Positions 3,050 through 42,582 of a stretch of DNA of 45,809 nucleotides are shown here, piece after piece (position 1 is the first letter of the stretch; the number at the start of each line of letters is the position of its first letter). The DNA comes from Coriobacteriia bacterium (GTDB taxonomy: Bacteria; Actinomycetota; Coriobacteriia; Anaerosomatales; Kmv31), in NCBI GenBank assembly GCA_014859305.1, contig JACUUM010000011.1:1-45809 (forward strand), in the 5' to 3' direction. Under the pieces are notes generated by a model. That model was given only the letters and a program-made list of their open reading frames with translations. It searched no databases and had not been told where the DNA came from. A program made the position numbers and the translations under genes.

Positions 3050-3754
3050 CTACAGACCCAGCGCCTTCTTCAGCGAGGAGACCCGCCGGCGGGAGACGGG
3101 GACCTGCGTGCCGGCACGGTCGGTGACCGTGAGCAGGAGCGTGCCTCCGTACATGGGGACGACCTCGCGCACCTTCGAGAGGTTCACCAGGAAGCGGCGG
3201 TGGACGCGGAAGAACCCCTGCCGCTCCAGCTTCCCCTCCAGCGCGGCGAGCGAGATCGTCGAGAGGTACCGCTCTCCGTCCGTGTGCAGGTAGCTGTAGT
3301 CGTCCTTGGCCATCACATAGTAGATGTCCTCGACGGCCACGAGCAGCTTCCGGCCCGCCTTCTCCACGGGGATCCGCTCCACCCGCGCCTCCTCGGCGGG
3401 CGAGATGCGCTCGATCGCCTGCTTGAGCCTCGTCAGCTCGACAGGCTTGACGAGGTAGTCGGTGGCCGCCACCTCGAAGGCCTTGACGGCGTGCTCGCTG
3501 TAGGCGGTCACGAAGACGAGGGAGGGGCTCTTCTCGAGGCTGGTGAGCACCTCGGCGAGCTGGATGCCGGTGAGCCCCGGCATCTCCACGTCGAGGAAGA
3601 CGACGTCGTACGGGATCGCCTTGATGAGTTGCAGCGCTTCGACGGCGTTGCCCGCTTCGCCGACCACCTCGACCCCGCCCGCCTCCTCGAGGAGGTAGCG
3701 CAACTCGGCGCGCGCGGGCGCCTCGTCGTCGACCACCAAGGCCTTAAGGGGCAT
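3050..3754 (-). CDS. LytTR-family response regulator
   Basis: A 234-aa DNA-binding response regulator. Residues 1-120 form a receiver domain (VVDDEAPAR at the start, phospho-acceptor Asp55 in FLDVEMPG, conserved Lys in DYLVKPVE). Residues 135-232 form a LytTR domain (YSYLHTDGERYLSTISL, FFRVHRRFLVNL). The start at ATG 3754 has GGAGGTG 6 nt upstream and lies inside the 3' end of the kinase gene (11-nt overlap), so the pair is translationally coupled. The next transcription unit downstream on this strand is usp-yjcH-actP, making acetate uptake the probable target. The ligand and targets are inferred from context. Confidence 0.92.
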   Translation of the reverse strand: MPLKALVVDDEAPARAELRYLLEEAGGVEVVGEAGNAVEALQLIKAIPYDVVFLDVEMPGLTGIQLAEVLTSLEKSPSLVFVTAYSEHAVKAFEVAATDYLVKPVELTRLKQAIERISPAEEARVERIPVEKAGRKLLVAVEDIYYVMAKDDYSYLHTDGERYLSTISLAALEGKLERQGFFRVHRRFLVNLSKVREVVPMYGGTLLLTVTDRAGTQVPVSRRRVSSLKKALGL

Positions 3755-5081
3755 CCGACACCTCCGCTCCGCCCGCGACCCGCGCCTCGTCCGCACCGCA
3801 CCTGCTGCCGGGCTCCAATTGTAGTGTGAGCGTGACCTTCGTGCCCTCCCCCTCGCGGCTTTCGACCTCGAGCCCCGAACCGGGGCCGTAGTTGCCGCGC
3901 AGGCGGTCGTGCACGTTGCGCAACGCGATCCCGAGTCCGCGCGCCGCCCCCGGTTCGAGCAGCACCGGCAGGCGCGACGCCTCGATGCCGACGCCGTCGT
4001 CGAGGACGTGCAGCAGGAGGCAGCCGTCGGCCAGCTCCGCTTCGATGCGCACGTGCAGCGGCTCGCGGGGCCGCATACCGTGCTGGATCGCGTTCTCCAC
4101 GATCGGCTGGAGGATGAACGCGGGCACCTGAACGCCGAGGGCCTCGCGCGCCACCGTCTCGGTCACGCTGACCCGGTCGCCGAAGCGTGCCCGCTCGAAA
4201 CTCACGTACGCGCGAACGTACTCGAGCTCCCGCTCGAGCGGGATGAGCTCGTCGCCCGTGTCCAGCGTCCGGCGGTAGAACGTGGCGAAGTCCCGAAGGA
4301 GCCTGCGCGCCTCGGCCGGGTCCGTGCGGATCAGCATGGCGATCGTGTTGATCGTGTTGAACAGGAAGTGGGGGTTGATCTGCGCCTGCAGGGCCTTCAG
4401 CTCCATGCGGGTGGCGAGCTGCGTCTGAAGCTCCAGCTCGGAGAGCTCCAGCTGGGTGGAGAGGAGCTTGGCGAGCCCCTCCACCATCGTGACCTGGGTC
4501 TCGTTGAGCAATCGCGGGGTCGTGTAGTAGAACTTCAAGGTCCCGACGGCCTGCCCTCGCATCTCGAGCGGGACCACGATCGCGGCTCGGAGCAGGCAGT
4601 CGCGCTTCGAACAGCCGATCTCCGTGCGCGTCTCCAGGATCCGGTGCTCGTTCGTCTCGAGCGCCTCGCACGTCGCCCGCGTGAGGATGGGCCCGCCGGT
4701 GTGGTGGTGGTCCTCGCCGATACCCGCGAAGCCGAGGATGCGCTCCGTGTCGGTGATCGCCACGGCCGCGGCCTCCGTCTCCGTCAGGGCGAGACGGCAC
4801 ACCTCCTGCGCCGTCTCGCCGTCGAGGCCACGCCGAAGATGCGCGAGGCTCGCGTTCGCGATGTCCAGGATGCTGTGCGACTGCATCGCCCTGAGGTGGT
4901 CGGGCCGCGTGATGAAGCGGGCCACCACCATCCCCATCGCCACCATCACGAGGCCGGCGATGGCGGCGACCGTCACGTACCGCGGCAGCCTGAACGCCAG
5001 CGACGCGCCCGCGATGACCGTGAGCGCGGCCACCGTCGTCATGAGCGCGACGTCGATGAGGACCCTTCTGCCGGGGTACAT
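3744..5081 (-). CDS. LytS-type sensor histidine kinase with GAF domain
   Basis: A 445-aa membrane-anchored kinase and partner of the overlapping LytTR regulator. Two N-terminal helices (about 8-28 and 35-56) are followed by a GAF domain (about 70-215). A His_kinase domain follows, with the phospho-acceptor His238 in QAQINPHFLFNTI, and then an HATPase domain (IVENAIQHG, LHVLDDGVGI, GIALRNVHDRL). The GAF region has His125-127 and cysteines at 138, 157 and 162, which could bind a metal or sense redox, although similar residues recur in this subfamily. ATG 5081 has GGGAGG 4 nt upstream. The signal sensed is unknown; location beside actP suggests acetate or a related metabolite. Confidence 0.92.
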   Translation of the reverse strand: MYPGRRVLIDVALMTTVAALTVIAGASLAFRLPRYVTVAAIAGLVMVAMGMVVARFITRPDHLRAMQSHSILDIANASLAHLRRGLDGETAQEVCRLALTETEAAAVAITDTERILGFAGIGEDHHHTGGPILTRATCEALETNEHRILETRTEIGCSKRDCLLRAAIVVPLEMRGQAVGTLKFYYTTPRLLNETQVTMVEGLAKLLSTQLELSELELQTQLATRMELKALQAQINPHFLFNTINTIAMLIRTDPAEARRLLRDFATFYRRTLDTGDELIPLERELEYVRAYVSFERARFGDRVSVTETVAREALGVQVPAFILQPIVENAIQHGMRPREPLHVRIEAELADGCLLLHVLDDGVGIEASRLPVLLEPGAARGLGIALRNVHDRLRGNYGPGSGLEVESREGEGTKVTLTLQLEPGSRCGADEARVAGGAEVSDAP

Positions 5082-8810: not shown

Positions 8811-9824
8811 TCACTGCACCATGTTGAGCTGCCGTCCGCACCGGGCGCACTCGCCGTCCCTCGCGCGCTGGTCCACCACGCTGTACCGCGAGCGGCGGAC
8901 GGCGACGGCGTCGCACTCGGGGCAGAGGGTGTCCTCCGACCCGTCCTCGGCCACGTTCCCGAGGTACACGAAGTCCAGCCCCTCGGCACGGCCGATGTCC
9001 CGCGCGAGACGCAGCGTCTCCACGGGCGTCGGGGGAAGCTCGGCGAGGTCGAGGTACGGGAAGAAGCGGGTGACGTGCCAGGGGATCTCGCGACCGAGCG
9101 CCTCGTGGATCCAATGGGCGATCCCGCGCAGCGTGGCCTCGTCGTCGTTGATCGTCGGGACGACGTTGGTGACGACCTCGACGTGCATCCGCCAGTGGAT
9201 CCTGGCCTGCTCCGCCATCTCGAGCACCGGCTCGATCCTCGGCACCTTGCACAGGTTACGGTACTGCTCGTCGGTGATGCCCTTCACGTCCACCCGCCAC
9301 ACGTCGATCAGCGGGCCGATGAGGTCCAATCCCTCGCGCGTGATCCATCCGTTCGTGACCATGACGGTGTAGAGCCCGGCCTCGCGGCAGGCGCGAGCGA
9401 CATCCACGACGTACTCGACCCATATCACCGGCTCGTTGTAGGTGAACGCGACGCCCGGACACCTGTACTTGTGAGCCATGTCGACGACGCGCTCCGGGGG
9501 CAGCTCGTGCAGCTGATCCTCGGCTTCCTCGGGCTTCAGCCGGCTGATCTGCCAGTTCTGACAGTGCCCGCATCGCATCGTGCAGCCCACGCTGCCGATG
9601 GAGAGCACGTTCGTGCCGGGGAAGTAGTGGAAGACCGGCTTCTTCTCGATGGGGTCCACCGCGATCGACGAGATGCGACCGTAGGTCATCGCCATCAGCG
9701 TGCCGTCCACGTTCCGCCGCACCCCGCAGATGCCGGCGCGGCCCTCGGCGATCCTGCAGCCGTGCGGGCAGAGGCGGCAGCGGACGCGATTCCCCTGAGG
9801 CTCCCACAGCAGCGCCTGCCGCAC
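8811..9824 (-). CDS. amrS: AmmeMemoRadiSam system radical SAM enzyme
   Basis: A 337-aa radical SAM protein of the pyruvate-formate-lyase-activating-enzyme-like family. The [4Fe-4S]/SAM motif CTMRCGHC is at Cys81-Cys85-Cys88. An N-terminal cysteine set (Cys16, 19, 23, 33) precedes it, and a C-terminal zinc-ribbon-like pair (CPEC ... CARC, about 314-333) follows. This layout matches the enzyme named for genomic association with AMMECR1 and Memo proteins; that system's function is not known. Neither AMMECR1 nor Memo is in this window. The GTG start is 9 nt after the hydrogenase-like DGC and has GGGAG 5-6 nt upstream. Co-expression with the DGC and the DsbA-like protein is likely. Confidence 0.86.
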   Translation of the reverse strand: MRQALLWEPQGNRVRCRLCPHGCRIAEGRAGICGVRRNVDGTLMAMTYGRISSIAVDPIEKKPVFHYFPGTNVLSIGSVGCTMRCGHCQNWQISRLKPEEAEDQLHELPPERVVDMAHKYRCPGVAFTYNEPVIWVEYVVDVARACREAGLYTVMVTNGWITREGLDLIGPLIDVWRVDVKGITDEQYRNLCKVPRIEPVLEMAEQARIHWRMHVEVVTNVVPTINDDEATLRGIAHWIHEALGREIPWHVTRFFPYLDLAELPPTPVETLRLARDIGRAEGLDFVYLGNVAEDGSEDTLCPECDAVAVRRSRYSVVDQRARDGECARCGRQLNMVQ

Positions 9825-9833
9825 GCCGGCTCC

Positions 9834-11645
9834 CTACTCCGAGGAGACCCTCACCTGGTCCTTTCCCGAGCCCTTCGCCGCGTACATCGCTCGGTCGGCG
9901 GCCTCCAGCAGCTCGGTCGGGTCCCAGCGCGGCCGCGCGAGGGACGCCCCTCCCACCGACACGCTGACACCCACCTCCCGAGTATACCCGTCGGCCTCGA
10001 AGGAGAAGGTGAGGGCCCGCAGCGCGGCCTGCAGCTTCTCGGCCACGCGACGCGCCTCCTGGGCGGTCGTGCCCGGCAGGATGACGGCGAACTCGTCGCC
10101 GCCGAAGCGGGCGGGCATGTCCGTGGCGCGCAGGGAGTCGCGCATCGCCTTGCCCACCGCGGCGAGCACGCAGTCCCCGGCGACGTGCCCGAACCGGTCG
10201 TTGACTCCCTTGAAGTCGTCCACGTCGAGCATGAGCAGCGACAGCGGGGTCTCGTAGCGCGCGGCGCGCGCCGACTCCTCGGCGAGCCGCTCGGAGAACA
10301 CACGGCGGTTCCAGAGCCCGGTGAGGGCGTCGAGCGTGCTCGACTCGGCGAGAGACGCCTTGCAGCGCGTCAGGCGTCTCTTCTGCAGCGGGAAGCACAT
10401 GTCCCAGCTCGAGTCGCCGCGCAGGACCGCGACGGCGTGCTCGACGCACGTCCGGCTCCCGCAGGCCCCGCAGTCCAGCGCCTCGGCCCGGGACCGGAAC
10501 TCCCCGCGCGCGAGCTCCGCGTCGATCTCCTCGGGAGCGGGCGCGGAAAGCAAGAGGGGCCGGGGCTTGAAGGAGCGGCGCAGCTCCACCGAGGGAAGGT
10601 AGCGCAGCAGCGCCCTGCTGCCGACCGCCGTCTTCCGGTGTGCCTCGCGCTCCGCGGCGACCAGGTTGCGCCTCGCGAAGACCGACATGCCGGGCGCAAC
10701 GGCCGGGCCGTCGATGCATCCCTCGCAGTTGAGCATGTCCACCACCGCCGGCCCCGCTTCCCCGTGCTCCATCGCGCGCAGCAGCTCGTCGAGCTGCCGA
10801 AGACCTCTCGTGACGACCATCCCGCCTGTGCGCGACCCTCCCTCCTCGACGGCGCGACGAGGGAACCCGTCGGTCAGCGAGACCTCCTTGAGCGCGGACG
10901 GGCGCCTGGCGCCCCGCTTGGGGGGCGGGGGCTCGGCGGGGTTGCGGGCGAGCAGACGCTTCAGCTCGGTGAAGTCGATGGCGGCGTCCACGGCGTCGGC
11001 CACGCCCTCATCGGCTATCTCGTCCTTGCGCGCGTAGCAGGGGCTCACGTACACGATGGCGGTGTCCTCGGGGTAGAGCGCCCGGACGAGCCGGGCCTGT
11101 GCGACGTACGGCGGCACGAGAGGAGCGAGGGCGGGGACGAGGGCGGGGTGGTAGCGCTCCACCCACGAGACGGCGACGGCGCAGGTGGATCGCAGGACGA
11201 ACAGCCCGCCGTCGCGCGCGTGGAGGCGCTCGTAGGCGCCCGCGACCATCTCCTCGCCGAGCAGCGTGCTCTCCACGGCGTAGAAGCCCGCCGCCTCCAT
11301 CGCCGCCTCGAGCTGGACGGGGGTCGTGGGGTACATCGCCGCGACGAACTCGGTGGCCAACACGGCCACCACCGGACGGCCCGACGCCAGCAGGGCCTCC
11401 ACCGCCGGCGTGTCGTCGCGCACGAAGTGCCCGCAGTTGCCGCACTCGGAGACGCAAAGCCCGCACTTGACGCACTTCTCCTGGATGACCTCGCTGCGGC
11501 CGTCGGCCACCCGGATCGCGTGCGCGGGGCAGAACCGGACGCAGCCCCAGCACTCACGGCACGTGCCGTCGGCGTCCTGGATGAGGAAGCCGCCGGTCTG
11601 CCCGATATGTTCCTCGGCCGTCCTCCGTGCCGCACGCGGATCCAC
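9834..11645 (-). CDS. [FeFe]-hydrogenase-like sensor fused to diguanylate cyclase (GGDEF)
   Basis: A 603-aa multidomain protein. Residues 29-68 hold two [4Fe-4S] ferredoxin motifs (CRECWGCVRFCP, then CVKCGLCVSEC). Residues 80-350 form an [FeFe]-hydrogenase H-cluster-like domain with three cysteine loops: STCAV (Cys155), SPCYARKDE (Cys203) and NCEGCIDGP (Cys307/310). A further Fe-S motif (CGACGSRTC ... C, 392-417) follows. Residues 436-600 are a complete GGDEF domain with DVDDF, FGGDEF and an inhibitory I-site RATD exactly 5 residues before GGDEF. The second Cys of the canonical first loop, used for proton transfer in catalytic enzymes, is Ala, and loop 3 has CxxC spacing. A sensory role (H2, CO or redox) controlling c-di-GMP synthesis is inferred. 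GTG 11645 is chosen because GGAGGT lies 6 nt upstream. Confidence 0.9.
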   Translation of the reverse strand: MDPRAARRTAEEHIGQTGGFLIQDADGTCRECWGCVRFCPAHAIRVADGRSEVIQEKCVKCGLCVSECGNCGHFVRDDTPAVEALLASGRPVVAVLATEFVAAMYPTTPVQLEAAMEAAGFYAVESTLLGEEMVAGAYERLHARDGGLFVLRSTCAVAVSWVERYHPALVPALAPLVPPYVAQARLVRALYPEDTAIVYVSPCYARKDEIADEGVADAVDAAIDFTELKRLLARNPAEPPPPKRGARRPSALKEVSLTDGFPRRAVEEGGSRTGGMVVTRGLRQLDELLRAMEHGEAGPAVVDMLNCEGCIDGPAVAPGMSVFARRNLVAAEREAHRKTAVGSRALLRYLPSVELRRSFKPRPLLLSAPAPEEIDAELARGEFRSRAEALDCGACGSRTCVEHAVAVLRGDSSWDMCFPLQKRRLTRCKASLAESSTLDALTGLWNRRVFSERLAEESARAARYETPLSLLMLDVDDFKGVNDRFGHVAGDCVLAAVGKAMRDSLRATDMPARFGGDEFAVILPGTTAQEARRVAEKLQAALRALTFSFEADGYTREVGVSVSVGGASLARPRWDPTELLEAADRAMYAAKGSGKDQVRVSSE

Positions 11646-11681
11646 GCACACACCTCCCGAAGACGGGTCGCTACGCTCCGG

Positions 11682-12227
11682 TCAGAAGCCGACCTTGAGT
11701 CGGCGCAGAGCGGCCTGGAGGGGCCAGCCCAGGCCGTACACGACCGTCGTCTGGCCCAAGCCTACCGCAGCCACTCCGAACAGATACATCGGCAGCCACG
11801 CCCCCTCCAGGTCGATCCCGAGCAGGGGCACCCGGTACAGGCCCAGGCCCGCGAGGACGAGCGGCAGGTACGCCGGCACGATGAGCGCGTTGGCGACCAC
11901 CGGCCCGAGGAGCGCGAGGGCCGGCCGGGCGCGCAGCCGCCACGTCCAGGCGGCGCCGAGCAGGGTCGCAAGCGAGCCGAAGACCACGTCGAGCAACGCG
12001 ATGGGGCCCACCTGAGCCAGTAAGAAGAGGTTCGCCGCCACGGACCCCAGCGCCAAGCCCGGGACCGCAGCGGGCGTGAACAGCGCTACCACGGTCACCG
12101 CCTCGCTGAGCCGGAACTGCACGAGGCCCCACCCCAGCTGGCTGGGCAGTTGGAGGACGGCGATCGTCACCGCGCCGTAGACGGCCGCGATGACGCCGGC
12201 TTGAGCCACGAAGCGGCTGGTGCCCAA
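11682..12227 (-). CDS. queT: QueT-family ECF transporter substrate-binding component
   Basis: A 181-aa membrane protein with about five or six helices. It matches the QueT family, the S component of an energy-coupling-factor importer for a queuosine precursor. Family-typical stretches are VQFRLSEAVTVVALFTPA and DVVFGSLATLLGA. The apparent start is TTG 12227 with GAAAGGG about 8 nt upstream. No preQ1 riboswitch consensus is visible in its leader, although many queT genes carry one. It lies 36 nt before the hydrogenase-like DGC on the same strand and is probably co-transcribed with it. The shared EcfA/EcfT energising subunits are not in the window. Confidence 0.82.
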   Translation of the reverse strand: MGTSRFVAQAGVIAAVYGAVTIAVLQLPSQLGWGLVQFRLSEAVTVVALFTPAAVPGLALGSVAANLFLLAQVGPIALLDVVFGSLATLLGAAWTWRLRARPALALLGPVVANALIVPAYLPLVLAGLGLYRVPLLGIDLEGAWLPMYLFGVAAVGLGQTTVVYGLGWPLQAALRRLKVGF

Positions 12228-12320: not shown

Positions 12321-14363
12321 CTATGCGGGCAGGCCGGGCTCACTGCCGACCTGGCGGAACAGCCCGGTCAATCCCGCCCCCTCCACGCGGCGCAGAGCCG
12401 AGGTGAACGCCTCGACGACGAGGGGGTCGAACTGCGTGCCGGAGGCCGCAGCGAGCTCGGCCTCGGCGACCGCGGGTGGCAACGCCCCACGGTAGGGGGT
12501 GTCCGCGCACATGGACGCATAGGCGTCCGCCACGGCCAGTATCCGCGCGAGCAGCGGGATCTGCGGACCGGCCAACCCCATCGGGTAGCCCCGGCCGTCC
12601 CACCGCTCGTGGTGGTGGAGCACGACGGGCGCCACGGCGTTGAGGTACTCCACCTGCTCGATCAGCGACGCGCCGATCCGGCAGTGACGACGCACCTCCG
12701 CCATCTCCTCCTCCGACAGACGCGTCGGCTTCAGCAGGATCGCCTCGGAGACGCCGATCTTGCCGACGTCGTGCACGAGCCCGGCGAGCCGCAACAGCTC
12801 CAGGTCGTCGGCGGGAAGCTCCATCTCCTCACCGATGAGCAGCGCGAACCCCATCACCTCGCCGGCGTGGCCGGGCTCCATGCCCTCGCCCGAGTCGAGC
12901 GCGGCAGACAGCAGTTCGAGGGTGTGGGCGTAGTCCTTCGCGATGCTCTGCACGCGCGCGGAGCGGTCGAACGCCGCGGCCACCTGCGCCGCGAGCCGCT
13001 CGAGCAGCCTCCGGTCGTCTTCGTCGAAGCCGTCCGGGGCATATCGGGCTGCGAACAGGCGACCCGCGACGGCTCCATCCGCGACCAGCGGCGAGCTGAG
13101 GGTGGTCCACTCGCGCGGTCCTACCGGCCGGTCCACGACCTCCCCGAGGTGCGAGACGATCTCCACGGCCGGTGATGGCGCGCCCGGCCCGCCGACCTCG
13201 GCGAGAAGGGCGTCCACCTCGGCCCGCGCCACCTGCCCGCGTACGACCAGCACCGTCCGGCGGGATCCGTCATGGGTCAGTAGGACTCCGCCCGCAGAGA
13301 ACTCGAGCGCCTTCTCGAGAAGGCTGGCGGCCAACGGCGCGATCTCGCGCGCCTCCGGGCAGCCCCGGCTCAGCAGGCGCGCTACCTCGTTGACGTGCAT
13401 GAGCTCGACGATCTCCCGCTCGCGCCGCTCCCGCCCCAAAGCGACGTCCAGAGCGACGGTCGCGAACGCCGCGAACCGCTCGAGGGCTTCGAGCGACCGC
13501 ACCCCGCCGCCGTCGGCCGGCACGTCCACGGAGAGCGCGCCGATCCTTCCGGCCTCGGCCGTCAGCGGAACGTACAGCGTCAGCCCTCCCGCCGGCCCTC
13601 GCGAGGACGGCGACGAGGCGACGGCGGAGCGCCCGGACTCGGAGGCACGGCGCAGGCCGTCGAGGACCGCGGGGCACGGGTCGCCTTCCTCGGCCACCAC
13701 TCTCAGCCGGCCGCTCTCCGGGCACAAGAGCGCCAGGCACCCGCGGGATCCGCCGAGGAGCGTCAGCGCGTGAGAGAGCGCCCACGAGGGCACCGACCCC
13801 GGACCACCGCTGAGCAGAGCGTCGTCGGACAGCAGGGACGAGAGCGTTCCGAGCAGCGTCGCGTCCTCCTCGGCGCGCTCGGACAGGGAGACGTTCTCGA
13901 AGAGGGACCGGGCCTGGTGCAGCACCATCTCCTCGATCGCGGCGATGCGGCGTCTCGCGATCACCGGCACCCCTCGGAGGATCGCGCGCATCGCGTCGCG
14001 CGTCAGGCCCCGCGACACGAGCCGTTCTCCGAGCGCCCTTCGTTCCGCTGCCGAGGTGACGAAGCCGCAGACGAGCAGCCGGGCGACGAGGCGGTCCTCG
14101 TGGACGAGCGGCAGGAGGCGGTACGGAGTCCCGCCGAGGCATCCTCCCGGGCCCTCGCACAGGCAGCGGAAGCGTTCGCGCGCGCTGTCGCCCTCGGCCG
14201 CGACGTCGCAGTAGCCCGCCCGCGGGCCGCTGGAGACGACCAGGTCCGCTTCGGGGTCGATGACCAGAACGCTCACCCCGAGCGCCTCGTACCAGGCCTC
14301 CAGTGCACCTCGCCACTCCGGCGAGAGGAACGCGGCTGATATGAACGCTTGGAAGTCCCGCAC
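12321..14363 (-). CDS. PocR-like/GAF sensor with HD-GYP c-di-GMP phosphodiesterase domain
   Basis: A 680-aa cytoplasmic signalling protein. The N-terminal ~150 residues resemble the PocR sensory domain: VSVLVIDPEADLVV, then a Cys-rich stretch with three cysteines in FRCLCEGPGGC. Two GAF-like domains follow (about 175-320 and 330-470). The C-terminal HD-GYP domain (about 480-660) has LVHDVGKIG and HHHERWDGRGYP, so catalytic residues for c-di-GMP hydrolysis are intact. GTG 14363 has GGAGG 5 nt upstream and fits a -10 at 14398; a longer GTG start at 14447 is possible. The N-terminal cysteines could bind a metal or cluster. It lies between the H-cluster/GGDEF operon and an OmpR-type two-component pair. 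Confidence 0.85.
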   Translation of the reverse strand: MRDFQAFISAAFLSPEWRGALEAWYEALGVSVLVIDPEADLVVSSGPRAGYCDVAAEGDSARERFRCLCEGPGGCLGGTPYRLLPLVHEDRLVARLLVCGFVTSAAERRALGERLVSRGLTRDAMRAILRGVPVIARRRIAAIEEMVLHQARSLFENVSLSERAEEDATLLGTLSSLLSDDALLSGGPGSVPSWALSHALTLLGGSRGCLALLCPESGRLRVVAEEGDPCPAVLDGLRRASESGRSAVASSPSSRGPAGGLTLYVPLTAEAGRIGALSVDVPADGGGVRSLEALERFAAFATVALDVALGRERREREIVELMHVNEVARLLSRGCPEAREIAPLAASLLEKALEFSAGGVLLTHDGSRRTVLVVRGQVARAEVDALLAEVGGPGAPSPAVEIVSHLGEVVDRPVGPREWTTLSSPLVADGAVAGRLFAARYAPDGFDEDDRRLLERLAAQVAAAFDRSARVQSIAKDYAHTLELLSAALDSGEGMEPGHAGEVMGFALLIGEEMELPADDLELLRLAGLVHDVGKIGVSEAILLKPTRLSEEEMAEVRRHCRIGASLIEQVEYLNAVAPVVLHHHERWDGRGYPMGLAGPQIPLLARILAVADAYASMCADTPYRGALPPAVAEAELAAASGTQFDPLVVEAFTSALRRVEGAGLTGLFRQVGSEPGLPA

Positions 14364-14394
14364 GAGGGCCTCCGATGACGCCTGCGACCGTCTA

Positions 14395-14405
14395 CCGATT
14401 ATCGG
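14395..14405 (-). promoter_or_regulatory. Palindromic CCGATAATCGG with -10 element upstream of HD-GYP gene
   Basis: An 11-nt perfect palindrome contains GATAAT, a good -10 hexamer, 32 nt upstream of GTG 14363. It would give a short leader carrying the GGAGG site. The palindrome could also be a small operator. No convincing -35 is seen. Confidence 0.38.
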
Positions 14406-14507
14406 CTCGCCCGAGCGGCTCCTTAGCCCTCCCGTGACGTGCGGCACACCGGAAGCGCTGTTCGGGGGACGAACGGTCGATCCCCGTCGCGAACGGACCG
14501 GGTGCGA

Positions 14508-15989
14508 TCAGGTCCTGCCACGGGGAAGGCGTACGACGAACGTGCTCCCCTGGCCCACGGTGCTGCGCACCTCCATGCGCCCACCGCTGGTCTCCACGAT
14601 CCTCTTCGCGATCGAGAGCCCCAATCCGAAGCCCCCGGTCTGTTTCGACCTCGACGAGTCGGCGCGGTAGAAGCGTTCGAAGATACTCGCCAGGTCCTCC
14701 TCGGAGATGCCCTGGCCGGTGTCCGAGACCTCCACCACCACGTCCTCGCGCTTGCGCCGCGTCGCGACCTGCACCCGCCCGCCGGAGGGTGTGAACTTGG
14801 CCGCGTTGTCCACGAGGATCGACACCGCGTCCTCGATGCGCTCCGGGTCCCCCACCATCATCAACTGGCCCTCTTCGGGCCCGACGAAGTCGAGGCCCTT
14901 GTCGAGGTAGCGGGTCGCAGCCGCCGCGAGCACCTCGCGGGCCCGCACGTTGAGGTCGAAGCGCTCCTGCTTGAACTCGGAGGCCTGGCCGCTACGTATG
15001 AGCGAGAGCAGATCGGCCGTGAGACGGGCCATGCGGCGCGACTCCCGGTCGATCGCCTTTATCGCCTCCTCCCTCAGCGCAAGGTCGTCGGCGCCCCACA
15101 CGCGAAGGATGTTCACGTAGCCTCGGATGCCCGCGACCGGGGTCGCGAGCTCGTGGCTGGCGTCGGCGACGAAGCGCGCCTGCGTCGCGGACCGCTGCTG
15201 AAGGCGCCCGACGAGCTTGTTGAGCGACCGGGCGAGGTCGCCCACCTCGTTGTGACCCATATCCGGAAGGCGCACATCGAGCTGACCGGCGTCGATGGAG
15301 TCGGCGGCCTCGCGCAGCACGTCCACGCGGCTGAGCACGAGCCCGACCGTGACCTGCATCATCAGCACGCTGGCGAACATCGTGACGATCGCGAGACCCG
15401 CCATCGGCCGGCGCAGCGCGTCGACGACGGCCTCCTCGCGGCGGGCGTCGTACACCACGTCCAGCACCGCCCGCTTCCCCCCGGGGAGGTCGAAGGGGAC
15501 GTGCACGATGAAGTTGCCCAGCTCGGCCCTGAAGAACAGTCCGGTGAGCAGGTGCCCCGGCTCGTGCTCCATCGCGATCGTCCGGTGCTGGTCCAGCGCG
15601 GTCCGGCGCGCCTGGCGGTGGTCGCCGACGAGCGCGGCGTCCCCGCTGTACCAGTACAACTCGTCGTCGGGGCCGTACAAGGCGAACTCCCCGAGCGCCG
15701 TGTCGCCGGTCCTCAGGTCCTGGATGCTGCGCATCACCTGGCGCTCGGCCTCCGCGTCCCGGTTCTCGAGGGGGACCCCGCGCAGTGCGGCCGAGATCTT
15801 GGCGTCGGTCACCTGCCCCTTCATGCGCTTGGCGGCCGCCTCGGCGATGGCCAGCGTCATCCTCTCGGCCGACGTCTCCATGCCGCGGGACACCACGAGA
15901 TAGCCCGTGACGGCGACGACGCTGACGAAGACGAGCGCGACGAGCGCGGACACGAGGAAGAGCCAGCGCCTCAGGGAAGAGCGGTGCAT
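14508..15989 (-). CDS. Membrane sensor histidine kinase (HAMP-HisKA-HATPase)
   Basis: A 493-aa kinase. Helix 1 (about 9-33) and helix 2 (196-218) bracket an extracytoplasmic sensor domain of about 160 residues. A HAMP linker (219-268), HisKA with phospho-acceptor His279 in VADASHELATP, and an HATPase domain (VDNAAKF, DTGQGI, GFGLGLSIAKRI) follow. It begins 27 nt after the OmpR-type regulator; ATG 15989 is preferred over GTG 16001 because GAGGGG is properly spaced. The extracytoplasmic domain has no obvious named fold, so the stimulus is unknown. Confidence 0.92.
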   Translation of the reverse strand: MHRSSLRRWLFLVSALVALVFVSVVAVTGYLVVSRGMETSAERMTLAIAEAAAKRMKGQVTDAKISAALRGVPLENRDAEAERQVMRSIQDLRTGDTALGEFALYGPDDELYWYSGDAALVGDHRQARRTALDQHRTIAMEHEPGHLLTGLFFRAELGNFIVHVPFDLPGGKRAVLDVVYDARREEAVVDALRRPMAGLAIVTMFASVLMMQVTVGLVLSRVDVLREAADSIDAGQLDVRLPDMGHNEVGDLARSLNKLVGRLQQRSATQARFVADASHELATPVAGIRGYVNILRVWGADDLALREEAIKAIDRESRRMARLTADLLSLIRSGQASEFKQERFDLNVRAREVLAAAATRYLDKGLDFVGPEEGQLMMVGDPERIEDAVSILVDNAAKFTPSGGRVQVATRRKREDVVVEVSDTGQGISEEDLASIFERFYRADSSRSKQTGGFGLGLSIAKRIVETSGGRMEVRSTVGQGSTFVVRLPRGRT

Positions 15990-16016
15990 GCCACCCCTCA
16001 CGCCCCTAGCCTGGCG

Positions 16017-16694
16017 TCACTTGGCGAAGAAGTAGCCGACGCCGCGGATCGTCTGGATGGTCGAGTTGTCCCGGTCGCCGATCTTGTTGCGCAGGTGGCA
16101 TACGAAGACCTCGATGACGTTGGAGTCGGTCGCGTGCTGGTTGCGCCAGACGTTGCTGAGGATCTCGTCACGCGAGACGACGCGTCCCGCGTTCGCAACG
16201 AGGTAGTGCAGGAGATCGAACTCCTTGGCGGTGAGGTCCAGGGCCCTCCCCTGGAACGACGCGCTACGCTTGTCCATGTCGATCTCGACGCCGGAGGCGG
16301 AGAAGACGGTGCGCCCGCGTTCCCTGTCCGAGCGCTTGAGCAACGCGCGCACGCGCGAGAGCAGCTCGGGGATCTCGAAGGGCTTGCGCAAGTAGTCGTC
16401 GGCACCGGCTTCGAAGCCCGAGACGACGTCGCGCGTCTCTGCACGCGCCGTGAGCATCAGGATGGGGACCTGCGACCCCTTCTCCCGCAACGTGCGCGCC
16501 ACGTCGATGCCGTCGATCTCGGGCAGCATGAGGTCGAGGATCATCAGGTCGGGCTCACCCTCGGCCACCGCTTCCAGGGCCTTGCGGCCGTCCTCGGCCT
16601 TGCGGACCGAGTACCCTGCATGCTCCAACTCGAGCTCGACGAAGCGCGCGATCGTGGCGTCGTCCTCGACGACGAGGACTTCGGCTCCGCTCAT
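16017..16694 (-). CDS. OmpR/PhoB-family response regulator
   Basis: A 225-aa transcription regulator. The receiver domain (1-120) has VVEDDATI, phospho-acceptor Asp54 in LDLMLPEIDG and Lys in LRKPF. A winged-helix DNA-binding domain (about 130-222) ends with the classic VEVFVCHLRNKI-type recognition helix and RGVGYFF. ATG 16694 has AGGAGG 4-5 nt upstream; the frame remains open further upstream into asd but without a better site. Its partner is the kinase immediately downstream. Targets are unknown. Confidence 0.93.
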   Translation of the reverse strand: MSGAEVLVVEDDATIARFVELELEHAGYSVRKAEDGRKALEAVAEGEPDLMILDLMLPEIDGIDVARTLREKGSQVPILMLTARAETRDVVSGFEAGADDYLRKPFEIPELLSRVRALLKRSDRERGRTVFSASGVEIDMDKRSASFQGRALDLTAKEFDLLHYLVANAGRVVSRDEILSNVWRNQHATDSNVIEVFVCHLRNKIGDRDNSTIQTIRGVGYFFAK

Positions 16695-16716
16695 CACTCC
16701 TCCTGTTGGCGAGGCC

Positions 16717-16742
16717 GGCCGCGCGGCCTTTCTCGCGCGGCC
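16717..16742 (-). terminator. GC hairpin between asd and the response regulator
   Basis: A perfect 9-bp stem (GGCCGCGCG/CGCGCGGCC) with an 8-nt loop lies 36 nt past the asd stop and 22 nt before the regulator start. There is no T-run. It may end lysC-asd transcription or sit in the regulator leader. Confidence 0.45.
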
Positions 16743-16774
16743 GTTCCAGAGACCCGGCATCGCCTCCGCTTGCG

Positions 16775-16780
16775 ATTCTA
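16775..16780 (-). promoter_or_regulatory. Possible -10 (TAGAAT) for the OmpR-type pair
   Basis: TAGAAT on the minus strand includes the TAG stop of asd. It is the same hexamer used at queT, pstS and livJ but lacks the preceding TGn and a clear -35, so support is weak. Confidence 0.28.
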
Positions 16781-17803
16781 CTCGCCCAGCAGAGACTCCG
16801 CTATCTGCACGGCATTGAGCGCCGCTCCCTTGCGCAGCTGGTCGGCCACGACCCAAATCGCCAGGCCGTGGGGGACGCTCACGTCGGCCCTGATCCTCCC
16901 GATGTGCACGTCGTCCGTCCCCTGCACCGAAGCCGGCATCGGGTACTCCCCGCAACCCGGCTCGTCGACTACGGAGATGCCCGGGGCGGCCTCGAGCGCT
17001 GCCCGCGCCTCCTCGACGCCCACCGGCGAGGAGAACTCGATGTTCAGCGCCTCGGAGTGGCAGCGCAGCACCGGCACCCGCACGCAGTTGGCGGCGATCT
17101 CCAGCTCGGGCGCATGGAGGATCTTCTTGGTCTCCACGACCATCTTCCACTCCTCCTTCGTCGAGCCGTCGGAGAGGAAGACGTCGATCTGCGGGATGCA
17201 GTTGAACGCGATGCGGTGGGGCAGCGCCTCCGGTATGGGCTCGCGACCGTCGAGCACGTCGCGGCTCTGGGAGACCAGCTCGTCCATGGCCGCCTGCCCC
17301 GCGCCCGACGCCGCCTGGTACGTAGAGACCACGACGCGGCTGATCGGCGCGAGGTCGTGAAGCGGTTTGAGCGCGACGACCATCTGTATCGTCGAGCAGT
17401 TGGGGTTAGCCACGACCCCGGTGTGCCACGAGAGGTCCTCGGCGTTGACCTCCGGCACGACCAGCGGCACGCCATCGTCCATCCTGAACGCCGAGGAGTT
17501 GTCGACCACCACGCAACCCGCCTCCGCGGCGGCAGGTGCCAGAGCGGTGGAGACGGATGCGCCGGCCGAGAAGAGCGCGAGGTCGACGCCGTGGAACGAC
17601 GCCTCCGTCATCTCCTCCACCACGAGCTCGCCCCCCCCGAAGGCAAGCTTCCGCCCCGCGGAGCGGGCGGACGCGAGCGCGACCACCCGCCGGGCTGGGA
17701 AACCGCGCTCCTCGAGCACGAGCAGCATCTCGCGGCCCACGGCTCCCGTTGCGCCGGCCACCGCCACGACGGGCCGCGAGGGCAGCGTGCGGCCGGCATC
17801 CAT
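16778..17803 (-). CDS. asd: Aspartate-semialdehyde dehydrogenase
   Basis: A 341-aa NADPH-dependent enzyme converting aspartyl-4-phosphate to aspartate semialdehyde, the shared step to lysine, threonine, methionine and diaminopimelate. The nucleotide-binding motif GATGAVGREM is near the N-terminus, the active-site Cys is in NPNCSTIQM, and the GAGQAAMDEL region and C-terminal His-containing IGRIRADVSV are present. Its ATG overlaps the lysC stop by one base (TGATG), so it is the second gene of a lysC-asd operon. Length and motifs are typical. Confidence 0.96.
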   Translation of the reverse strand: MDAGRTLPSRPVVAVAGATGAVGREMLLVLEERGFPARRVVALASARSAGRKLAFGGGELVVEEMTEASFHGVDLALFSAGASVSTALAPAAAEAGCVVVDNSSAFRMDDGVPLVVPEVNAEDLSWHTGVVANPNCSTIQMVVALKPLHDLAPISRVVVSTYQAASGAGQAAMDELVSQSRDVLDGREPIPEALPHRIAFNCIPQIDVFLSDGSTKEEWKMVVETKKILHAPELEIAANCVRVPVLRCHSEALNIEFSSPVGVEEARAALEAAPGISVVDEPGCGEYPMPASVQGTDDVHIGRIRADVSVPHGLAIWVVADQLRKGAALNAVQIAESLLGE

Positions 17804-19147: not shown

Positions 19148-21703
19148 TCAGGCGCTCTCGCGCAGCTGCAGCACGGAGGCGACCGAGCGCATGCGCTCCG
19201 AGAGGTCCGAGAGCGCCTGGGCGTAGAAGTGCTCCACGAGGGTGTGCCCGGAGGTGTGCTCCATCAGGACGACCATGCGGTCGATCACCTCGGTCATCAC
19301 CGCCATGTGCTCCGCCGGGTCGGACCCGTCCGTGCGCAGCGAGAAGTGGCCGTGGCGGACGACGCACGGCATCCCCTTCTCGGCGCACGACTCGTTGAGC
19401 TGCCGCTCGAGGTTCGCGGCGAGGCGCGGACCACCGAGGCGCCTGAACTCGGCGAACATGCCGTCGCACAGCGCGACGAACGTGGCGTGCAGCTCCTCGG
19501 GCTGGAGATCGCCGAGTGCCGGCTGCTCCTCGGCGGAGGCCCTGTCGCCACGTTCCGCCTCGAGGATGCCGACGAACGCCTCGACCACCTTCGGGTCGAA
19601 CTGCGTCCCGGAGCACCGTCGCAGCTCCTCGATCGCCTCGTCACCGCTCCTGCCGGGCCTGTAGGGGCGGTCCGAGACCATGGCCTCGTAGGAGTCGGCG
19701 ACCGAGAGTATCCGGGCCAGCAACGGGATCTCCTCGCCGCGCAGCCCCGCGGGATAGCCGCGGCCGTCCCAGTGCTCGTGATGGTGCCGGACCACCGGCG
19801 CGATCGGCCACGGGAACGCGACGGGCTTGAGGATGTTCGCCCCGATGAGCGGGTGGTGCCGCATCTGCCCCATCTCCGCCTCCGTGAGACGGCCGGGCTT
19901 CATCAGGATCTCCTCGCGTATCCCGATCTTGCCGATGTCGTGCAGGTAGGCCGCCATCTCCAGGGCGATCCGCTGCTCCGCCGACAGTCCGAGGCGCTCG
20001 CCGATGCGCACCGCCAGGGACGCCACCTTGTCGGAGTGACCGCGGGTGAACGGGTCCTTGGCATCCACGGCCTCGGCGAGCGAGCGGACCGTGGCCAGGT
20101 AGGCATCCTGCAGACTCAGGAAGAGCTCGATGTTGCCGATCGCGATCGAGACATGGTTCGCGATCGTCGAGAGCAGGCGGACGTCCTCGGCGGAGAAGCG
20201 GACGGCGGGGTTGTGGCTGCCGATGGTGATGGTACCGATCACCCCTTCCGACGTCGTCAGCGGGACACACAGCGCGGCGCTGGCGCCGGTCATGGGATCC
20301 GCTTCGTGCGGCACCTCGTCGGTGGGGTTGAAGATGAGCGGCCTCCCCTCGCGGACGACCCACTCCGACATGGAGCTGCGGACCGTCCTTTCGGGAGTGC
20401 GGCCGACCGCGCCACGCGAGGTCTTGAGGACGAAGCGGCCCGAGTCCTTCTCGCGAAGGGTCACGTAGCCGGAATCCACGTTGAAGATCCTCATCGCGGC
20501 ATCGAGCACCGACTCGAGCAGCGCGTCCAGGTCGAAGGTGGAGCCCAGCGAGCGGCTCATCTCGTAGAGCGTGGCGAGCTCGAGCACCTTCTTGGTGAGC
20601 GACTCGGTGCGCTCCCGCAGCGAGTCGGTCATCTGGTTGAAGCTGACGGCCAGGTCCGTGATCTCGTTGGCGCCCTCGGTGACGGCCGTGGCCGCGAAGT
20701 CGCCCTCGGCCACGCGCCTCGATATGGACGCAAGGCTCGCCAGGGGGCGGGAGACGCGTCTGGCGACCCAGTTCCCCAGCCATACGAGCACGCACACGGC
20801 GAAGGCCGACCACATCAGGATCAGCGCCGTGGTCGTGCCGCGCGCCTGAGCGGTCACGTCGGTGCTCATGATCGACATGACGCGGATCCGGCTGTCGGTC
20901 GGGTCGTCCTCCAGCAGCATGTCCCCTATGCGAACCCTGTACCTCGAGCCCCCGACCTCGAGGTCGTAGGTGCGCGTCTCACGGGGACCGAGGTCCAACG
21001 CGGCCAAGCCCTTGAGCCGCGGGTCGTCCACTATCACCTCTCGCAGCGCGTCGTTGTGGGGGTCGGTGCCGACCGAGGCGGCGACGTGGCCGCGGCCGGG
21101 CAGCGACAAGCAGTACGACGCCCCGGACCCCTCGGTGAGCACGTCCAGGAACGCATCGTCGATCCTGCGGGTGAGCGCGAGCGTATGTACGGTGTCGTCC
21201 GTCCCTCCCATCGGCTCGAACGCCGTCAGCGTCGGCACCCCGCCGAGCTCGATGAAGACGACGTGGCTCATCATCAGCGCCACGTAGGTCCGGTCCGCCG
21301 GACGGAGCGGTGAGTCGCCGGGCTTCAGCGACAGGGCCCCGGTGGTCGAGACCACCCGGCCCTCGCCGTCCAGCAGCATCAGGTTGTCGGTCTTCAGTGC
21401 TCCGTTGGTGACGGCGAGGACGGCGGTGATAGCTCCGGGATCCCCCGTCCTGACCCGCTCCTTCAGCTGCGGGTTCTCGGCGGCGATCTTCGCGGTGCGC
21501 GACAGGGTGGCGGCGTCGACGGCGAGCGCGCTCTCCACGCTCTCGGCAGCCGCCGCGGCGGAGACGTCGACCCAGTCGTCGATCAACCTGGACAGCAGGT
21601 AGACCGCGAGCACCGTCGCGACTATCCCGACGACGACCGAGGCCACGACCAGGGGCATGACGATCTGGTTGTGAAGGTGTCGCCCGAAGATGGATCTTCG
21701 CAT
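19148..21703 (-). CDS. Membrane HD-GYP sensor (Cache-like, HAMP, GAF) with C-terminal extension
   Basis: An 851-aa predicted c-di-GMP phosphodiesterase. Helix 1 (13-38) and helix 2 (292-312) flank a Cache-like extracytoplasmic domain (about 40-290). HAMP (313-366), GAF (about 380-525) and HD-GYP (530-718) follow, with catalytic HD at 588-589 in YLHDIGKIG and HHHEHWDGRGYP at 640-651. Residues 720-851 form a helical extension with Cys746, Cys773 and Cys780 that I do not recognise. ATG 21703 is chosen because GAGGAG lies just upstream and it clears the pstS-like gene. That gene ends 38 nt before, so the periplasmic lipoprotein and this sensor may share a signal. Confidence 0.88.
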   Translation of the reverse strand: MRRSIFGRHLHNQIVMPLVVASVVVGIVATVLAVYLLSRLIDDWVDVSAAAAAESVESALAVDAATLSRTAKIAAENPQLKERVRTGDPGAITAVLAVTNGALKTDNLMLLDGEGRVVSTTGALSLKPGDSPLRPADRTYVALMMSHVVFIELGGVPTLTAFEPMGGTDDTVHTLALTRRIDDAFLDVLTEGSGASYCLSLPGRGHVAASVGTDPHNDALREVIVDDPRLKGLAALDLGPRETRTYDLEVGGSRYRVRIGDMLLEDDPTDSRIRVMSIMSTDVTAQARGTTTALILMWSAFAVCVLVWLGNWVARRVSRPLASLASISRRVAEGDFAATAVTEGANEITDLAVSFNQMTDSLRERTESLTKKVLELATLYEMSRSLGSTFDLDALLESVLDAAMRIFNVDSGYVTLREKDSGRFVLKTSRGAVGRTPERTVRSSMSEWVVREGRPLIFNPTDEVPHEADPMTGASAALCVPLTTSEGVIGTITIGSHNPAVRFSAEDVRLLSTIANHVSIAIGNIELFLSLQDAYLATVRSLAEAVDAKDPFTRGHSDKVASLAVRIGERLGLSAEQRIALEMAAYLHDIGKIGIREEILMKPGRLTEAEMGQMRHHPLIGANILKPVAFPWPIAPVVRHHHEHWDGRGYPAGLRGEEIPLLARILSVADSYEAMVSDRPYRPGRSGDEAIEELRRCSGTQFDPKVVEAFVGILEAERGDRASAEEQPALGDLQPEELHATFVALCDGMFAEFRRLGGPRLAANLERQLNESCAEKGMPCVVRHGHFSLRTDGSDPAEHMAVMTEVIDRMVVLMEHTSGHTLVEHFYAQALSDLSERMRSVASVLQLRESA

Positions 21704-21741
21704 CTGCTCCTCGCGGACTCCGCCGCCGGCCCAGCCTGCCC

Positions 21742-22602
21742 TTACGGTCCCCCCACCGGAGGCGCGTAACCCCTCGAGCTCATCATCTCGACGGTCTCGT
21801 CGCTGCGCGCCCATCGCAGGAACGCGCGTATCCCGTCGGAGGGCTGCACTCTGGTCACCACACCCAGAGGCCTGATCACCTTGTAGCTTCCGTCCTCGAT
21901 GCTCGCCACGGAGGCCTCCACCCCGTCGAGCTCGAGGCGGCGCACGGGGATGTCGCGCGAGAGGGCGTACCCGAGCGAGAAGTAGCCTATCGCCCCGGGG
22001 GTCTTCTCGAGACCGTCCACCATGTCGGGCTCGTAGAACAGGTTCACGGCCCTGTCGGTCACCCTCAGGTCGCCGATGACGTACTTGCGAAGGATGATCT
22101 TGGCCGACTCGTCCTCGTTGCGGTCGAGCACGGTGATCGCGAGGTCCGGGCCGCCGAGCTCGGACCAGTCCCTGTGATCGCCGCGGTATATCGCCTTGAC
22201 CTGCTCGGTGGTCAGGCCGTCGATCGGAACGTCCCGGTGTACCGCGAGGATGAGTCCGTCGCTGGACAGCGCGGTGTAGAGCAGGCCGAGCTTCTTCTCC
22301 TCGTCGGTGAGCTCGCGGGAGACCATGCCGAGGTCGAGGTCGCCGTTGGCGACCCCTTTGATGCCGCCCCCGGAGTGGAGTCCGGGCAGGAACGAGAACT
22401 CGATGTCGCCGCCCTGGTACTCATCGGCGAGGATCTGGACGAGCGGGCGGCACGTACCGGAGCCGGAGACGCGCACGCTCACCCGCTCGCGCTTCTCGCC
22501 GCCCGCGCCGACCTCCTGTTGGGAACAGCCCCCGCCGATGAGCGCGAGGAGCGCGAAGCAGCATGCGACCGCGACCGCGCGCCGCTGCAGACCGGAACGC
22601 AT
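21742..22602 (-). CDS. PstS-like periplasmic substrate-binding lipoprotein
   Basis: A 286-aa predicted lipoprotein. The signal peptide ends in LIGGGC with the lipid-modified Cys26. The mature part has phosphate-binding-protein features: SGSGTCRPLVQIL near its start, GGGIKGVANGDLDLGMVSR, and TPGAIGYFSLGYAL. No pstCAB genes are adjacent, so it may serve a transporter encoded elsewhere, bind another oxyanion, or act as a ligand-binding partner of the HD-GYP sensor that follows. ATG 22602 has GGAGGG 5 nt upstream; a GTG two codons earlier is too close to that site. Confidence 0.83.
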   Translation of the reverse strand: MRSGLQRRAVAVACCFALLALIGGGCSQQEVGAGGEKRERVSVRVSGSGTCRPLVQILADEYQGGDIEFSFLPGLHSGGGIKGVANGDLDLGMVSRELTDEEKKLGLLYTALSSDGLILAVHRDVPIDGLTTEQVKAIYRGDHRDWSELGGPDLAITVLDRNEDESAKIILRKYVIGDLRVTDRAVNLFYEPDMVDGLEKTPGAIGYFSLGYALSRDIPVRRLELDGVEASVASIEDGSYKVIRPLGVVTRVQPSDGIRAFLRWARSDETVEMMSSRGYAPPVGGP

Positions 22603-39391: not shown

Positions 39392-41040
39392 GAGTCGGGC
39401 ACCTCCCCTGTCGCCGCGTACGTCACCCGGTACCACCTGTACCCGTACGGACCCAGCGCCACGTCCCACACCCCCTCGGAGACCTCCCTCTCCTCCGCCT
39501 CTCCGAAGACGGGCTGGAGCAGCCGGCTCCGGTGGTCGCGGACATCGAAGCGGATCCCGCTCGGCCTGTGGGAGAGGTTGTGGACGGCCACCACGTGCCC
39601 GTCCTTCCACACGCAGTGGTGCGCCATCACCTCGCGCGCCCCCGTGTCGAACGGGTGCCACCGGCCGAGGGCGAACTCCGGGCACGCCCTCCATGCGGCG
39701 ATCAACCGGCGCATGAAGGACAGCCGGGAGGAGGGATCGCCCGACTGCCTCTCGACGTTCACGCGGCGGTACGAGAACGCGCCCTTGGAGACCACGGGCC
39801 GGACGAGGTGCCCCGGGCGCGCTGTGGAGAAGCCGCCGTTGCGGGCCGAGCTCCACTGCATGGGGACGCGCACCGCGGCGCGACCGTCCGCGCCGAGGTC
39901 GTCGCCGAGACCGATCTCGTCCCCGTAGACGATCAGCGGCGCTCCCGGCAGCGAGAACGTGAGCGCCCAGGCGAGCTCGACCAGGCGGGGGTCGCCGAGC
40001 ATCGGGGAGAGCCGTCGGCGGATACCGCGGCCGTAGGCGCGCATGCCCTCGTCCGGCGCGAACCGTCCGTACACCAGCGCCCTGTCGTCGGGAGAGAGCC
40101 AGCTGAGGTTGAGCTCGTCGAGGTTGCGCAGGAAGTTGACCCATTGGCAGCCGGGCGGCCCGGCGGGAAGCTGCCCCAAGGCCTTGAGCAGCGGCTCCTT
40201 GTCCTCGCCAGCCACGGCGAGCCAGATGTGGCCGTTCAGGAAGAAGCCGAAGAGCATGTTCATCTCGTCGCCGTCCCCGAAGTACTCCACCAGCTGCTCC
40301 GTGTCCAGGTCGACCTCGCCCAGCAGCGCGGTGTCCGGGCGCTGCTGGGACACCCGCTCGCGGATGCGCCGCAGCCACCCGTGGGTGTCGCGATGGCCCG
40401 GCAGCGCGGGGTCCGGGCCGACCAGGACGGGCAGCGCGTCCATGCGGAAGCCGGAGACGCCCATCGCCAGCCAGAAGTCCATCACCGCCTCCGCCTCGCG
40501 ACGGACCTCCGGGTTGCGGAAGTCGAGCTGCGGCTGGAAGCGGTAGAAGCGATGGTAATAGTAGGCGCCGGCGACCTCGTCATAGGTCCAGAGGCGGTCG
40601 TCCTCGCCCGGGAACGCCGTCGTGGCGCCGAGGGGGACGGCAGGCGGGCTGTCCGCCCAGAGGTAGTAGCCGCGGTAGCGGGACCGGCGGTCCCGGCGCG
40701 CGGCGAGGAACCAGGGGTGCTCGTCGGAGGTGTGCGCCATCACGAGGTCGATCATGACGCGCATCCCGCGCTCCCCGGCCTCCTTCACGAGCACGGAGAA
40801 GTCCCGCAGCGTCCCGAGGCGCGGGTCGACGCAGTAGTAGTCGACCACGTCGTAGCCGTTGTCCTTCCTCGGGGAGACGAAGAACGGCAGCAGCCAGAGG
40901 CACGTCGCCCCGAGCCCGGCGATGTGGTCGAGCTTCTCCGTCAGCCCGCGCAGGTCGCCGACCCCGTCGCCGTCGGAGTCGGCGTACTTCTCCACGTCCA
41001 CGCAGTAGATGACCGCGGTCTTGTACCAGAGGTCCTGCAA
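39385..41040 (-). CDS. GH13 trehalose synthase-like protein
   Basis: A 551-aa cytoplasmic GH13 protein similar to trehalose synthase (maltose alpha-D-glucosyltransferase). It has the N-terminal WYKTAVIYCVDVEKYADSDG, nucleophile Asp in GVSGFRMDALPV and Glu in ALLGEVDLD. The third conserved motif is FLRNLDELNL: the catalytic Asp is kept, but the His of the usual NHD is Leu. Activity may thus differ from TreS. The start is uncertain: TTG 41040 follows a G-rich tract with no clean ribosome binding site. It is overlapped by the alpha-glucosidase gene, so the pair likely acts together on maltose/trehalose. Confidence 0.85.
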
Positions 41041-41151
41041 GCCGCCCCCCCGCCCCGCGAACCTCGCGTCCGCCCGGAAGCTCTGTACCCGGAAAGCGGG
41101 GACGTCCGCGCGGAGAAGCGGGGTGGCGGCCGTGGAGGGAGTGCGGGGGAG

Positions 41152-42424: not shown

Positions 42425-42582
42425 GAAACCGCTCCTCGAGGGGGGGGCGTCAAGCGCCCGTGCCGCAGCACCCCCGGTGCGGCCCAGGCCCGAGCCCCCG
42501 CGCATCCCTGTCTCCGTCGGCGACGGCCCCCGATGTCAGAGCGGCCCGTCAAGATGGCACCCGACGGACGTGAGGAGGAGCG

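Follow-up and report, generated by a model that had tools for sequence, protein, structure and literature searches.

The window (the whole stretch of 45,809 nucleotides analysed here) carries a gene that joins a sensory-type [FeFe]-hydrogenase domain to a GGDEF diguanylate cyclase domain, and this fusion represents a new branch of sensory group C, linked to GGDEF and spread throughout the order. Sequence comparisons suggest that the protein is probably a multi-[4Fe-4S] sensor that lacks an H-cluster and drives c-di-GMP, with redox or iron-sulfur status as the presumed signal. Named relatives place the host in the order Anaerosomatales, class Coriobacteriia. The gene, its parts and its conserved neighbours are located as follows.

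8811..9824, minus strand: AmrS-type radical SAM enzyme (326 bits to AmmeMemoRadiSam, cut-off 220)
9834..11651, minus strand: H-domain/GGDEF fusion protein, 605 aa; GTG at 11645 is the probable start, which gives 603 aa
9858..10337, minus strand: GGDEF domain (diguanylate cyclase) whose active site is intact in the window protein (Pfam; residue alignment)
10119..10130, minus strand: RxxD inhibitory site (R508-D511), kept in 54 of 54
10335..10394, minus strand: helix linking the FeS domain straight to GGDEF (model secondary structure; no PAS)
10389..10478, minus strand: C-terminal FeS domain PF04060, C394/397/402/419 (Pfam; conservation)
10704..11372, minus strand: [FeFe]-hydrogenase H-domain (Pfam; profile match to solved hydrogenases; fold match to 8ryh; ligands invariant)
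11028..11030, minus strand: Arg208 at the CpI K358 position, the distal-cyanide anchor (Arg in 55 of 55; lysine role from PMC6100070)
11349..11351, minus strand: Glu101 at the CpI S232 position, the proximal-cyanide anchor (alignment; S232 role from PMC12138974)
11442..11570, minus strand: two N-terminal [4Fe-4S] motifs (Fer4_10; invariant in 54 of 54 rows with letters)
11682..12227, minus strand: QueT-like transporter, conserved upstream neighbour (Pfam; synteny)
12321..14447, minus strand: HD-GYP protein that also has GAF and PocR-like parts, perhaps a c-di-GMP phosphodiesterase, conserved in part of the order (Pfam; synteny)
14508..17150, minus strand: response regulator and histidine kinase, a pair conserved upstream (Pfam; synteny)

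A ribosome-binding site, GGGAGG, is better suited to the GTG at 11645, which matches the gene end given in the preliminary description. Four Pfam domains, all above cut-off, follow one another in the protein: Fer4_10 (residues 28-70), Fe_hyd_lg_C (residues 94-316, 97 bits against a cut-off of 22), FeS PF04060 (residues 392-421) and GGDEF (residues 439-598, 151 bits against a cut-off of 24). Cysteines 31/34/37/41 and 60/63/66/70 make up the N-terminal [4Fe-4S] motifs; the cubane ligands of the H-domain are C157 in loop 1, C205 in loop 2, and C309 and C312 in loop 3, which reads CxxC rather than CxxxC; and the C-terminal FeS domain contributes cysteines 394, 397, 402 and 419. The GGDEF motif lies at 517-521. 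No PAS domain was matched by Pfam in the fusion protein, and kinase, MCP and phosphatase outputs were likewise absent by Pfam, leaving GGDEF as its sole output domain. An AlphaFold2 model (mean pLDDT 84.5) is confident over the H-domain and has a helix running from the FeS domain to GGDEF. Searched with Foldseek, it matched solved diguanylate cyclases and [FeFe]-hydrogenases (8ryh, TMt 0.60 over 424 columns), which is support at the level of the fold only. The domain architecture is thus real and far above chance, and the earlier observation of two [4Fe-4S] motifs, an H-domain, an extra FeS motif and a GGDEF domain with an I-site in one chain is confirmed by the Pfam scores and by the invariance of the cysteines.

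The fusion protein is the sole Fe_hyd_lg_C gene in 62 of 69 Anaerosomatales genomes, and in a sixty-third (G065) one gene is present as two pieces on different contigs. No canonical [FeFe]-hydrogenase was found by the Fe_hyd_lg_C search among the 69. Residue conservation was counted on 55 distinct proteins of the order, or on 54 where one row has no letters at the position in question. All 16 cluster cysteines are invariant across these proteins, with the cubane ligands present in 55 of 55, so that the cubane site is kept. Single copy, spread across the whole order and synteny together point to purifying selection over a long time and not to a relic. In a phylogeny built by a quick method and containing long branches, the GGDEF-linked members group together as a single clade (SH-aLRT 100) nested within sensory group C, four of them from outside Anaerosomatales (L128, L130, L131 and L158). 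They match no HydDB subtype, whether C1 (kinase), C2 (chemotaxis) or C3 (phosphatase). Domain content and group C placement bear out the initial proposal that a diguanylate cyclase is joined to an [FeFe]-hydrogenase domain of the sensory type. No description of an [FeFe]-hydrogenase domain and GGDEF in one protein was found in the literature searched, which covered sources outside the subscription journals.

A search for the HydEFG maturases had been called for in the preliminary description, and it returned none above the curated cut-offs in the 69 genomes of the order. For HydG the count was 0 of 69; for HydE it was again 0 of 69, with sub-threshold matches of about 18-71 bits against a cut-off of 255; and for HydF, 0 of 69, the best match reaching at most 93 bits against a cut-off of 326. 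The sub-threshold HydF matches span the first part of the model only, as ordinary GTPases would. None of the three was found in the window's own genome, and one genome in the set (G012) is assembled as one contig with a completeness rating of 100%. Thermotoga maritima, the positive control, scored above cut-off in each maturase search. Radical SAM proteins at 160-190 bits to HydG occur in four Anaerosomatales genomes (L042, L043, L044 and L045); they fall below the cut-off and were left out of the count.

As a wider control, 31 genomes of distant relatives were searched. HydG was above cut-off in 14 of the 31, and all 14 also have a canonical hydrogenase scoring above 275 bits. HydG did not exceed the cut-off in the four genomes with outside GGDEF-linked members, and the same holds for L141, a complete Gemmatimonadota chromosome that carries a kinase-linked relative. 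Three genomes (G156, G160 and G170) have a canonical hydrogenase and no HydG match at all, and in a fourth (G173) HydG is represented by no more than a fragment at the edge of a contig; all four cases are probably due to incomplete assemblies. The association with HydG holds between genomes, draft gaps explain some of the absences, and its direction is consistent.

The pocket that would hold the diiron site is also altered. In canonical enzymes and most sensors of hydrogenase-bearing genomes, an AP[AS] segment at CpI P231-S232 and a PCxxK loop 2 supply S232 (or Ala) and K358; the proposed sensor of Ruminococcus albus, RaHydS, has APSF and GPCVSKK. S232 hydrogen-bonds the proximal cyanide of the diiron site, with Ala at this position in CpIII (PMC12138974), and the lysine is a potential salt-bridge partner of the distal cyanide (PMC6100070). 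The Anaerosomatales proteins have Glu101 at the S232 position (54 of 54) and Arg208 at the K358 position, and the four outside GGDEF-linked proteins have Glu at the first and Ala or Met at the second. The S232 and K358 positions may not be essential in the fusion protein. Taken together, the absence of the maturases and the replacement of both cyanide anchors leave H2 or CO sensing through an H-cluster unsupported, and the [2Fe] subsite is, to judge from sequence, very probably absent from members of the family.

Two other features of the H-domain had been cited earlier in favour of sensing over turnover. The proton-relay cysteine (CpI C299) had been described as Ala; the position is in fact Thr156 in 55 of 55 proteins, and the Ala noted is residue 158 of the window protein, directly after the ligand cysteine, a position held by Pro in almost all relatives. 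Loss of the relay cysteine is known from sensory groups C and D (PMC10407848) and is seen in kinase-linked sensors beside real hydrogenases in HydG genomes, which removes its force as an argument for sensing. The CxxC of loop 3 is present as described and argues neither for nor against sensing, being common to kinase-linked sensors beside hydrogenases. Both features were rejected as markers of a missing H-cluster because they are common to sensors beside real hydrogenases, as was the replacement of Met497 by Leu, which such sensors share.

A similar change of pocket is found in a separate kinase-linked clade (L141, L142, L143, L146, L148, L149, L151, L152, L154 and L160; SH-aLRT 100), which includes Gemmatimonadota, KSB1 and Deltaproteobacteria. 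Its members mostly have DP[ASTx]; they have Arg or Gln at the K358 position and keep the cubane ligands; some of their genomes contain HydG and canonical hydrogenases. By its sequences, this may be a second clade without a diiron site. For several of its members, an adjoining gene carries a CSICPIGS-type motif. In Dehalococcoidia and Eisenbacteria kinases the Lys is retained, the segment reads SAPF and there is no HydG. The change of pocket thus seems to have occurred more than once.

At the output end, residue alignment upheld the earlier reading of an intact active site and I-site in the window protein, one of 28 Anaerosomatales proteins that keep Lys481, Asn484 and the Glu of GGDEF. The metal Asp is in place in these 28 as well. 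The active site is lost in 26 of 54, where the Lys is gone and Gln, Arg or Thr stands in place of the Glu; motifs of this set (e.g. in L019, L030 and L067) read xGDQF or xGDRF, with FK changed to FG. Wherever a protein with a degenerate cyclase has a known family, that family is f13. The I-site residues R508 and D511, together with R515, are kept in 54 of 54 proteins with letters at these positions. Measured against the H-domain, conservation of the GGDEF region is lower among the degenerate proteins (ratio 0.83 vs. 1.02). Degenerate GGDEF domains can act as c-di-GMP receptors. By analogy, family f13 may have switched from writer to reader, and probably binds c-di-GMP instead of making it.

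The gene lies in a conserved order of response regulator, kinase, HD-GYP protein (in part of the order), QueT, fusion gene, AmrS, DsbA (again in part), a conserved unknown, GNAT and GAF kinase. AmrS lies immediately downstream of the fusion gene in nearly all Anaerosomatales loci long enough to include it, and its Memo partner was found neither in the window genome nor, beyond weak or fragment matches, elsewhere in the order. Within the fetched flanks of the four outside GGDEF-linked loci there is no AmrS; a homologue of the window GAF kinase (3744-5081) lies within about 4 kb in all four (L128, L130, L131 and L158). Two HD-GYP proteins near the cyclase (12321-14447 and 19148-21814 in the window) are possible c-di-GMP breakdown enzymes, and a protein with seven CXXCH haem motifs, likely a multihaem cytochrome, is encoded at 40580-42505.

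Three other explanations were weighed. The proposal made at the outset was that the protein senses H2, CO or redox state and writes it into c-di-GMP. Redox remains the best candidate; H2 and CO do not fare as well. A true H-cluster sensor of either gas would account for all four cubane ligands, among them the counterpart of the bridging cysteine, and for the nesting in sensory group C. An H2 sensor would also make sense, as cultured relatives grow on H2 (PMC9686372). These strict anaerobes are reported to oxidise it by [NiFe] hydrogenases only (PMC9686372). Against such a sensor stand the lack of HydE, HydF and HydG above cut-off in the order, the replaced cyanide anchors and the lack of a canonical [FeFe]-hydrogenase. 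We consider it highly improbable, and H2 sensing by the fusion protein equally so.

Maturation might still follow an unknown route where HydEFG is lacking, and the adjacent AmrS, its Memo partner lost, might serve as a dedicated maturase that makes or installs an unusual H-site cofactor. Its position beside the gene, the weak or absent Memo matches and a specific pocket suggested by the invariant Glu101 and Arg208 speak for this, but the outside GGDEF-linked loci have no AmrS in their fetched flanks, and AmrS is common in genomes without hydrogenases, and we consider the idea very improbable. Its fuller form, in which an orphan AmrS provides by a non-HydEFG route a novel cofactor that is held by Glu101 and Arg208 at the old H-site and acts as the sensor for c-di-GMP, has a slim chance. 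Alternatively, the H-domain might be a structural or electron-transfer scaffold, with a cyclase that is in effect constitutive or answers to a partner, for instance the kinase pair upstream. The conserved kinase and regulator fit this, as does the retention of the H-domain by the roughly half of the family that lost the cyclase residues; yet 16 cluster cysteines without exception, and a direct helix from FeS domain to GGDEF within one chain, would be unexpected of a scaffold, which we regard as unlikely.

The reading we prefer is that of a cluster-state sensor descended from a sensory group C-type [FeFe]-hydrogenase, in which the diiron [2Fe] part of the H-cluster would have been lost. The protein could hold up to four [4Fe-4S] clusters, a count deduced from its ligands: two at the N-terminus, one in the C-terminal FeS domain and the cubane where the H-site used to be. 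C419, the predicted last ligand of the C-terminal cluster, would stand at the start of the helix that leads to GGDEF. Altered redox state or integrity of the clusters, through low potential, O2, NO or iron-sulfur supply, may shift this helix in a dimer and so alter c-di-GMP synthesis, with the I-site providing product feedback; that cluster state controls the GGDEF domain is likely. In family f13, the loss of catalytic residues and retention of the I-site would put c-di-GMP binding in place of synthesis. Cultured Anaerosomatales are non-motile and bear pili-like appendages (PMC9686372).

Group C (M2f) sensors such as TmHydS and RaHydS share with the fusion two N-terminal clusters, an H-domain without the relay cysteine and a C-terminal FeS domain, and the fusion groups with sensory rows in the tree. 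It differs from them in its GGDEF output without PAS, in the replacement of S232 and K358 and in genomes without HydEFG. HydDB groups C1 (kinase), C2 (chemotaxis) and C3 (phosphatase) have the same sensor core, and kinase-linked relatives also share the CEGCIDGP loop, whereas the output of the fusion is a diguanylate cyclase. A Thermoplasmata archaeon (L159, 3008-4363) encodes a protein that resembles HydDB C2, with an H-domain, an FeS domain and a weak match to MCP signalling. Eukaryotic Nar1/NARF/IOP1 proteins offer a parallel, as they have the hydrogenase fold and keep the [4Fe-4S] sites while the diiron site is missing; their role, in cytosolic iron-sulfur assembly and without signalling output, differs. 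The only class that HydDB records as linked to a diguanylate cyclase is [NiFe] group 2c (PMC5037454), for which the same idea of a hydrogenase-type sensor acting on c-di-GMP has been proposed, in an unrelated hydrogenase family with another cofactor and maturation.

Diguanylate cyclase is thus a fourth output type for sensory group C, and a whole order keeps the hydrogenase fold without a known means of building its cofactor. Given the similar pocket change in a separate kinase-linked clade, putative H2 sensors assigned by fold only may be iron-sulfur sensors, and the S232/K358 pocket pair together with the presence of HydEFG gives a simple sorting test for them.
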